NCBI GenBank assembly: GCA_025936825.1
Contig: JAICSO010000026.1
Location: 1-54,124, forward strand
Length of the DNA: 54,124 nucleotides
DNA from: Terriglobales bacterium
GTDB taxonomy: Bacteria; Acidobacteriota; Terriglobia; Terriglobales; Acidobacteriaceae
Direction of reading: 5' to 3'
Shown here piece by piece: positions 15,846 to 53,617 of this stretch. Below the pieces are notes generated by a model. That model was not told the origin of the DNA and made no database searches. It was given only the letters and a program-made list of their open reading frames with translations. Within the stretch, counting starts at the first letter, position 1; each line of letters begins with the position of its first letter. A program made the position numbers and the translations under genes.

Positions 15846-15885
15846 TCCCTCAGCTAGTCATGACCGGAGAATCGAAGTGCATAGG

Positions 15886-15945
15886 TCCTTCGACTCCGCA
15901 GGACGATTCGCGAGCGAACCATCCTGCTCCGCTCGAGGATGACAG
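15886..15945. repeat. Palindromic unit (TCCTTCG...GAGGATGAC type)
   Basis: The spacer between sucD and ndk holds a unit framed by TCCTTCGACTCC and CTCGAGGATGAC, with a central inverted stretch GATTCGCGAGCGAA. It shares framing and core with units at 33518, 34091, 47966 and 51647. Confidence 0.65.
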
Positions 15946-33205: not shown

Positions 33206-33952
33206 TTAGCCAAAGAACTCGACGAATTTCGCGAGGACGGAGGCGGGCAAGTCCTCCCGTCTTTTCTTTCCCGCGAACCCGAGATCGTGGCCGGCGCCTT
33301 CCACTGGAAGAAGTTCCGTTCTTGCGGGAACCAGTTTCCGGGCGCGTTCGATCTCCTCGATCGTTCCAAACGGGTCTTTCGTCCCCTGCACAAAAAGGGT
33401 GAGAACGTGAAGACCAGGGAGGTGCTGGGTTCGTTGCTGATCCGATCGCGCAGGTGGGTGCAAGGGATAAGACAACAGGAGCAGGCCATCAGCGAGACCA
33501 GTTGTTTCCTCAGAATTGTCATTCCGAGCGGTAGAAGCGGATTCGCTCGCGAATCGGTTTCCGAGTCGAGGAACCTGCTTTTCTCCGCGTTCAGCCAACA
33601 ACATGCTCGCTTGCCGTCCACCATAACTTTGGCCACCGAGAAAAAGGCGGCGCGGCGCAATCTTCCTCATCGCGGCAAGAGCATTCGCCAGCCCAGCACG
33701 ATCTCGGAATGCTTCGCTGGGCCGAGGCGGCCCAAACGGACGCACTTGCCGGAACGGCAGATCGCACCGCAACACCGTGAAACCCGCGCCAGCAAAGGCT
33801 TCCGCGAGGGCCACGAACATTGCCATTTTCACGTTGCCGCCGGCGCCATGAGTTAGAACCAGACCGTCGCCCGAGGGCGAGGCCGGACGGTGCAGAAAAC
33901 CTCGCACCGGTGGATCGCAAGAGGACTCTAAAAAGTCTCGATACTCGGACAC
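33206..33952 (-). CDS. Alpha/beta-hydrolase (KANL3/Tex30-like) with in-frame repeat insertion
   Basis: 248 aa. Fold signatures: LVLTHGAGGNVKMAMFVALAEAFAGAGFTVLRCDLPFR (oxyanion strand and helix A), nucleophile elbow RRLFLGGQSYGGRQASML, LADGLLLLSYPLHPP, LFVQGTKDPFG (Asp region) and VEGAGHDLGF (catalytic His). Substrate unknown. Between MLLAER and GLADG, where relatives run straight on, lie about 30 residues (EKQVPRLGNRFASESASTAR and following) that are encoded by a palindromic repeat unit at 33518-33583 of the same family as units in gaps. The frame is preserved, so the protein may still fold with an extra loop between strand beta-5's helix and the next strand. Whether it stays active is open. 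Confidence 0.85.
   Translation of the reverse strand: MSEYRDFLESSCDPPVRGFLHRPASPSGDGLVLTHGAGGNVKMAMFVALAEAFAGAGFTVLRCDLPFRQVRPFGPPRPSEAFRDRAGLANALAAMRKIAPRRLFLGGQSYGGRQASMLLAERGEKQVPRLGNRFASESASTARNDNSEETTGLADGLLLLSYPLHPPARSDQQRTQHLPGLHVLTLFVQGTKDPFGTIEEIERARKLVPARTELLPVEGAGHDLGFAGKKRREDLPASVLAKFVEFFG
33518..33583. repeat. Palindromic repeat unit inside the hydrolase gene
   Basis: Begins GTCATTCCGAGCGG and ends GAGGAACCTGCTTTT, the same frame as the intergenic units at 37294, 37350 (inverted), 49244 and 53462. A core inverted repeat GATTCGC/GCGAATC with a 2-nt loop sits in its middle. It encodes about residues 124-145 of the hydrolase. Confidence 0.8.
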
Positions 33953-34090
33953 GACGGAACTCCCAAACCCACTCAGCAGAATGTTTGTATCGGGTGAGTG
34001 AAATACGAACCTTTCAGTGCGTCATCCCAAAACCCGCGGTTTCACCAGCGGGACAAGGGATCTCGCGTGCAGCATAGATGCCCCACGCGA

Positions 34091-34132
34091 GATCCTTCGC
34101 TCCGCCTGAAGAGCGGCTTCGCTCAGGATGAC
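34091..34132. repeat. Palindromic unit (GATCCTTCGC...GCTCAGGATGAC)
   Basis: Lies in the gap between the hydrolase and the S2P-like gene. Framed by GATCCTTCGCTCC and GGCTTCGCTCAGGATGAC, as at 47966 and 51647. Confidence 0.7.
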
Positions 34133-37238: not shown

Positions 37239-37293
37239 GGAAGAAGCTAACTCAAGGCAGTGTCGGTCAAGTTCGTATCCTACTGACCAAGAT

Positions 37294-37386
37294 GTCATTC
37301 CGAGGATCTTTCAGATGCGAGGAACCTGCTTCTCTTCCCCGTGACGCAAGAGCAGGTTCCTCAGCGCTGAAGCGGTTCGGAATGAC
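37294..37386. repeat. Inverted pair of palindromic units
   Basis: GTCATTCCGAGGATC to GAGGAACCTGCTTCTC (37294-37334) faces an inverted copy starting GAGCAGGTTCCTC and ending GTTCGGAATGAC (37350-37386). The pair could fold into a long hairpin between pyk and yihY. Confidence 0.8.
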
Positions 37387-49229: not shown

Positions 49230-49243
49230 AATCTTTTTTCCTT

Positions 49244-49282
49244 GTCATTCCGAACCGCTTCAGCGGTGAGGAATCTGCTTTT
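49244..49282. repeat. Palindromic unit between rplA and rplJ
   Basis: GTCATTCCGAACCGC to GTGAGGAATCTGCTTTT, with the inner hairpin CCGCTTCAGCGG. Nearly identical to the unit at 53462. A second small hairpin, GGCGGGCGAGCTGCCCGCC, follows at 49295-49313. Confidence 0.85.
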
Positions 49283-49320
49283 CTTTCCAGAATGGCGGGC
49301 GAGCTGCCCGCCCCATGTCG

Positions 49321-51858: not shown

Positions 51859-52255
51859 AAATCCCAGCTCCTAGCATGTCTTCCTGAGGCGGCTTCCGCC
51901 GCCGAAGGACCTATGTATTTCGTGTGGCGCAGGCGCCCTCGCCCGTGCTCATTCAAATCACATCTTGATGTGATTTGTACTTCTTGTTGCGTTCCTTCCC
52001 AAAGAAATCGTATATCGACGACCACGGCGCTGCTGCAATCGGCGATATCAAGAGAATTCCGAGAATCCAAAATGCGTCACGCATTCACGATCCCGTTTCC
52101 TCTGCCGTCCCTACGGGACTCTGTCCTTCTTGCTACCTTTCCTAGGGCTTCCGTCCTGGGCTAAGCTCGTTCGCCCCTTCGGGGCTACATGAGAAATCAG
52201 GCTACTTAGCTCTTTGCTTTTGCCAACAACCAACAACCAAGAGCCAACAGCCGCT
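51859..52255. repeat. Composite repeat spacer downstream of tuf
   Basis: 397 nt with no gene. It holds, in order, a CCTGAGGCGGCTTCCGCC unit (about 51885), a GTGTGGCGCAGGCG unit (51921), a perfect 11-bp hairpin at 51954-51977 (TT loop), a CCGTCCCTACGGGACTCTG unit (52105), a CTAGGGCTTCCGTCCTGGG unit (52141), a GCCCCTTCGGGGC hairpin (52171) and the heptamer array at 52222. Confidence 0.8.
52222..52252. repeat. Heptamer array (GCCAACA) after tuf
   Basis: GCCAACA, ACCAACA, ACCAAGA, GCCAACA, GCC. Differs from the array after frr by a single base over 31 nt and, like it, ends within 4 nt of the stop codon. Confidence 0.9.
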
Positions 52256-53443
<1,188 letters not shown>

Positions 53444-53461
53444 TTTTCTTCCTCAAAACCT

Positions 53462-53617
53462 GTCATTCCGAACCGCTTCAGCGGTGAGGAACCTGCTTTT
53501 CTGCCGTCCCTACGGGACTCTGTCGTTCACTTCGCCTACCCAGGGCTTACGCCCTGGGCTAATTATGTTCCGCCCCTGCGGGGCTGAGTTCGTGTGGCGC
53601 GGGCACTCTTGCCCACG
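53462..53617. repeat. Composite repeat spacer upstream of tuf
   Basis: Five palindromic units in a row: GTCATTCCGAACC to GAGGAACCTGCTTTT (53462-53500); CCGTCCCTACGGGACTCTG (53504-53522); CCCAGGGC/GCCCTGGG hairpin (53539-53558); GCCCCTGCGGGGC hairpin (about 53572-53584); GTGTGGCGCGGGCAC with TTGCCCAC (about 53592-53616). Four of the five unit types recur on the other side of tuf in another order. Confidence 0.85.

Follow-up and report, generated by a model that had tools for sequence, protein, structure and literature searches.

The window analysed here, a stretch of 54,124 nucleotides from an acidobacterium of the order Terriglobales (contig JAICSO010000026.1, positions 1 to 54,124), carries an alpha/beta hydrolase gene on its minus strand (33206..33952; 248 aa; Abhydrolase_11, E 1.1e-27). 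Inside this gene, on the plus strand, lies a 67-nt palindromic unit of the long form (33517..33583; TGTCATTCCGAG ... GAGGAACCTGCTTTTC), which matches the covariance model of its repeat family with 74.3 bits and an E-value of 5.1e-17. An earlier note on this DNA had described a unit inserted in frame in the hydrolase; the frame is indeed open through it, with the correction that gene and unit run in opposite directions. A motif search of the window placed the two framing motifs at 33518-33528 and 33568-33582. Between them, on the plus strand, are the arms of an inner hairpin, at 33537..33546 (5' arm, columns 22-31 of the unit alignment) and 33549..33558 (3' arm, columns 37-46). The translated insert includes the peptide stretch QVPRLGNRFASESASTARNDN.

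The hydrolase unit had also been likened to spacer units at 37294, 49244 and 53462. Units are present at all three places, but they are of a short form of about 41-42 nt, unlike the long form in the hydrolase. Those at 37293..37334 and 53461..53501, both on the plus strand, are model matches (E 3.1e-5 and 4.8e-6, respectively), the former with an inverted partner that ends near 37386 on the minus strand and was recognised by motif only. The one at 49243..49283 (plus strand) was likewise recognised by motif only and is absent from the covariance model list. A second long-form unit lies at 15874..15944 on the minus strand (model match, E 1.2e-11). In the window alone, the 11-mer framing motif occurs at chance level (23 found against 19.7 expected, allowing up to two mismatches), while GAGGAACCTGCTTTT with up to three mismatches was found six times against 1.4 expected, a number reached in none of 100 shuffles; genome-wide, GTCATTCCGAG occurs 67 times and the reversed pattern once. 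Two other features of the window were observed in passing. Immediately outside the hydrolase gene, on its 5' side, is a related-looking inverted repeat that ends in GTCATCCTGAG on the minus strand (34020-34132), and two Acido-Lenti-1 RNAs (RF01687), at 53539-53585 and 52141-52186, exceed the gathering score. Together with three named relatives, these RNAs point to an acidobacterium, perhaps near Candidatus Sulfotelmatobacter.

The hydrolase protein was searched in 61 genomes, 31 of which gave a match, and 24 orthologue loci were aligned, with weaker hits left out. The alignment to orthologues of the genus splits at residues 122/152 of the window protein, which is 29 residues longer, close to the 30 or so added residues that had been proposed. 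The insertion spans residues 123-151, approximately 33500..33586 on the minus strand, and is thus about 20 nt longer than the unit. Over residues 119-154, 22 of the 24 orthologues are shorter by 28-29 residues and one by 24; the last (L010) is shorter by nine and has some 20 unrelated residues there. The same residues in orthologues had been set in advance as the outcome that would count against an insertion; they were looked for and are found in none of the 24, and a covariance model scan of the orthologue loci found no unit at the insertion site. The longer loop of L010 was considered as a possible unit and rejected, the model finding none at the site; in this locus (genome G035) and in L022 (G012), the only matches are weak ones ahead of the homologous part, in a stretch over which the frame is still open.

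In an AlphaFold model, residues 125-151 form a disordered segment between a helix (109-124) and a strand (156-160); the model is a modest one (mean pLDDT 62, pTM 0.66, four sequences, best of five; the other four have mean pLDDT 40-45). The insert is thus predicted to follow the nucleophile helix and to precede the next strand. Ser109, Asp193 and His222, which we take from their position in the fold to be the catalytic triad, are constant in all 25 rows of the alignment, and the terminal branch of the window gene, at 0.284, has a length quite usual among those of the tree. The gene therefore looks functional.

A DNA search of the same genome (G000) with window positions 33490-33600 gave 48 matches. 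Of 30 returned loci, 29 were aligned, the window copy included, one (L054) being left out as not placeable. The ends of the units are nearly constant (TGTCATTCCGAG and GAGGAACCTGCTTTT), while the inner hairpin varies. The long form is predicted to form 16 pairs, in an interrupted outer helix of six and an inner stem of ten. Across the 29 units, 95.7% of 463 cells pair, and changes on both sides of a pair were found in 61 cells, compared with 15.5 in shuffles; none of 500 shuffles attained the observed values, and sliding the partners abolished the signal. This pairing with compensatory changes indicates that the unit is a maintained palindrome rather than a product of chance. It has no match in Rfam at the gathering threshold.

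A covariance model built on the 29 units retrieved 114 matches at E ≤0.1 in the 6.54-Mb genome, from which one overlapping another on the opposite strand was left out. The remaining 113 units comprise 68 of at least 60 nt and 45 shorter ones; 98 start with TGTC and two with CGTC, and in most the 3' end is CTGCTTTT. Nineteen pairs consist of units separated by at most 120 nt, and every one of them shows the same inverted order, its TGTC ends pointing outward. Among near relatives, the model has matches at E ≤0.01 in 21 out of 37 genomes, G000 being counted among them. They are 21 of the 23 genomes of the same family and none of the 14 of a second family; the two unit-free members of the first, G005 and G006, belong to the same genus as G000. 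In a class-level draw, 28 of 61 genomes match at E ≤0.001, with a best E-value of 5.6e-9 outside the family compared with 4.7e-21 in the own genome. At one locus of G001 (L196, contig C474), six units of the same orientation lie within 3.5 kb, with two groups of them about 126 nt apart, a clustering not seen among the units of G000.

The hydrolase is not the only gene that harbours such a unit. We scanned the frames around the 113 units and kept long frames with a coding signal on both sides, which yielded six further conserved genes with in-frame units: uvrA, mnmG, ispE and genes for a DegT aminotransferase, an S9 peptidase and an RlmI-like methyltransferase. The S9 peptidase was named from Pfam only, the other five products also through solved homologues. 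With the hydrolase, eight of the 113 units lie in seven genes, the uvrA insert being an inverted pair of short units, and 105 lie outside these seven; a home-made gene caller marked seven units as genic and missed the one in the hydrolase. Alignments of UvrA, MnmG, IspE, DegT and the methyltransferase to their solved homologues stop before the unit and resume after it. Relatives were compared at the unit site for the hydrolase, UvrA, MnmG, IspE, DegT and S9, and in those of UvrA, MnmG, IspE and DegT the residues of the unit are wholly or partly missing; these four loops vary in length generally, those of UvrA, DegT and IspE even in the unit-free G005 and G006. Frames of a NiFe hydrogenase (L170) and a cysteine dioxygenase (L163) were excluded, since their units lie at the N-terminal end and could be ahead of the start codon, and the remaining unit-containing frames were dropped for weak coding signal or lack of recognised homology.

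Some of these inserts are common to several species. The S9 peptidase could be aligned at the unit site in ten relatives (L288 falls short of the site). At this position the model also detects a unit in G003 (83.4 bits), G002 and G001, so that four species of the genus, G000 included, have the insert in common, while the aligned rows of G013, G011, G008, G009 and G012 have no unit. The site in G004 holds a different sequence; G006 lacks the insert residues, and a single weak match (E 0.017) falls in another part of its locus. Of the 23 codons of the insert, three show silent and five show replacement differences between G000 and G003, which does not suggest that the peptide is strongly constrained. 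For the uvrA pair, there is a model match in G003, and in G007 a degenerate copy without a model match is recognisable by eye only; this insert is thus common to two species and probably to a third. Judging from these comparisons, the S9 and uvrA inserts are evidently old and tolerated.

In mnmG, three of 19 relatives' loci carry an in-frame unit, which in G004 and G013 occupies the linker region that is also occupied in G000, and in G014 lies elsewhere. The element may be one of free-living acidobacteria that, tolerated in translation, repeatedly enters the linkers of the same core proteins, MnmG and UvrA, is inherited across species and provides a lasting source of new loops, a reading that we put forward tentatively, at somewhat less than even chances. 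In the MnmG linkers at L151 (G000) and L258 (G003), stretches such as QHSALS and YSALSIQ resemble translated CAGCACTCAGCA-type repeats, so that these linkers may also take up repeats of other families.

The unit in the hydrolase is a genuine insertion of the REP/RPE-like kind, and the explanation that we consider very probable is that a non-autonomous element of this kind has spread through the genome, leaving a few in-frame survivors within genes. The suggestion that the unit was, or is, mobile is supported by the occupied and empty sites and by more than 100 dispersed copies. The palindromic element would have spread by transposition, probably moved in trans by an enzyme. Most surviving copies are intergenic, an excess that purifying selection may account for; the genic survivors would be those that kept the frame, introduced no stop and landed in a loop or inter-domain linker, where the host protein would tolerate the extra hairpin-derived peptide as a nearly neutral addition. 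The hydrolase copy would be one tolerated insertion of this kind.

Maintained base pairing with compensatory changes, together with the high score still reached by the G003 copy in the S9 gene, could also be read as the mark of a control element, a transcript hairpin or protein-binding site whose genic copies were placed or retained for regulation. Both observations, however, are also expected of young copies of a mobile hairpin, the copies lie in unrelated genes, some in one orientation and some in the other, units are missing from two genomes of the genus, and the gene ends adjoining units (from home-made gene calls) show no one arrangement; we regard this reading as improbable. It is less probable still that the inserts are artefacts of assembly or binning: repeats do promote misassembly, but here the frame is kept, orthologous sequence stands on both sides, six further in-frame cases exist, and the same S9 and uvrA inserts recur in other genomes. 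That an ordinary length-variable loop resembles the repeat by chance, as the unrelated residues of L010 might suggest, is refuted by the family-model match, whose E-value applies to the whole genome, and its probability is negligible.

Among known systems, the spread of a palindromic, non-autonomous element into genes has its closest counterparts in the Rickettsia palindromic elements (RPEs) and the CGTC-type REPs. The analogy with RPEs, already drawn in the earlier note, holds in view of the six further conserved genes. Like RPEs, the acidobacterial units are palindromic and sit in frame in unrelated conserved genes whose orthologues lack them, as in the hydrolase and the S9 peptidase; the same applies to UvrA, MnmG, IspE and DegT, but in loops that are generally variable. 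The hosts differ in phylum, and the acidobacterium has a large genome. RPE-6 and RPE-4 of R. conorii have been identified with CGTC-1 and CGTC-4, respectively, in the passages of Di Nocera et al. 2013 (PMC3733652) on which we draw. The same passages report that in several species REPs sit in frame inside genes, one of which is uvrA, and describe CGTC REPs as having a terminal CGTC, TGTC or CCTC tag, an 8-9 bp stem closed by a loop of 4-5 nt, a short unpaired tail (mostly CCA) and no known dedicated transposase, and as occurring predominantly in head-to-head dimers (the 'head' end is not specified there). For Acidobacteria, they mention transposases and no CGTC family (PMC3733652).

Compared with these descriptions, and by description rather than letter by letter, the acidobacterial units agree in being dispersed hairpins with a TGTC end, a named variant of the tag borne by most of them, in their inverted pairs, in their in-frame genic copies, uvrA included, and, in G000, in having no transposase gene with units within 500 nt. 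They differ in that the unit is longer, with its interrupted outer helix and covarying inner stem of ten pairs in place of the short stem and loop, and in that the tail is CTGCTTTT instead of CCA. REPs of the GTAG type, with the BIMEs and REPINs mobilised by RAYTs, have in common with our units the dispersed hairpins, the fixed-order inverted pairs and the location mostly outside genes, but the acidobacterial unit has a TGTC end and no GTAG end, and no Y1 gene in G000 is flanked by a unit within 500 nt. The target-site duplication of a MITE of a DDE transposon was not found either, flank repeats being at chance. In the literature text covered, with most subscription journals outside its scope, we found neither this acidobacterial family nor its covarying long form nor genic inserts of it that are shared between species, and no evidently related paper came up for GTCATTCCGAG. 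The kind of phenomenon is therefore known from Rickettsia and some other bacteria, while the acidobacterial repeat family appears undescribed. It represents an RPE-like invasion of genes in an acidobacterium with a large genome. Related species differ in which sites are occupied and which are empty, and four of them have retained at least one insert in frame. An old question thus becomes testable outside Rickettsia, namely whether peptides of this sort are carried along neutrally or serve as raw material from which new parts of proteins arise. The published repair genes carrying REPs are joined by a further uvrA case.

As to the transposition itself, direct repeats of at least 4 nt flank 29 of 75 single units, compared with 30.2 in shuffles, and seven of the 19 pairs, compared with 7.2; the TCAG at 33510-33513 and 33591-33594, considered as a target duplication of the hydrolase unit, was dropped given this chance level. 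None of the seven Y1 places of G000 (eight Y1_Tnp rows) has a unit within 500 nt, the nearest unit to a Y1 match being about 770 nt away (C34). In G004, two of 12 Y1 matches were viewed with their flanks, and the nearest unit lies about 430 nt and 1.3 kb away. Transposition is therefore a putative step, and the two negative results, the latter for 500 nt around the Y1 places of G000, fit the CGTC-type REPs. Across the 23 genomes of the family, Y1_Tnp and units coincide throughout, with both present in 21 and neither in G005 (a genome 78% complete) and G006, whereas eight of the 14 genomes of the second family have Y1 and none has units, so that Y1 alone is insufficient. A Y1 enzyme acting in trans is possible, and the co-occurrence is a lead to the mobiliser.

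Translatability is no special property of the genic copies. On their own strand, 49, 41 and 46 of the 68 long units are open, compared with about 26-27 in shuffles; on the opposite strand the numbers are 26, 31 and 34, compared with about 27. Six of the eight genic units are translated from this opposite strand, on which openness is at the shuffle level, so poverty in stops does not explain the genic copies. Around the long units of G000, 68 in number, G makes up 6.9% of the 12 nt that precede the TGTC end and 26% of the 12 nt that follow the unit, the low value possibly reflecting a target preference.
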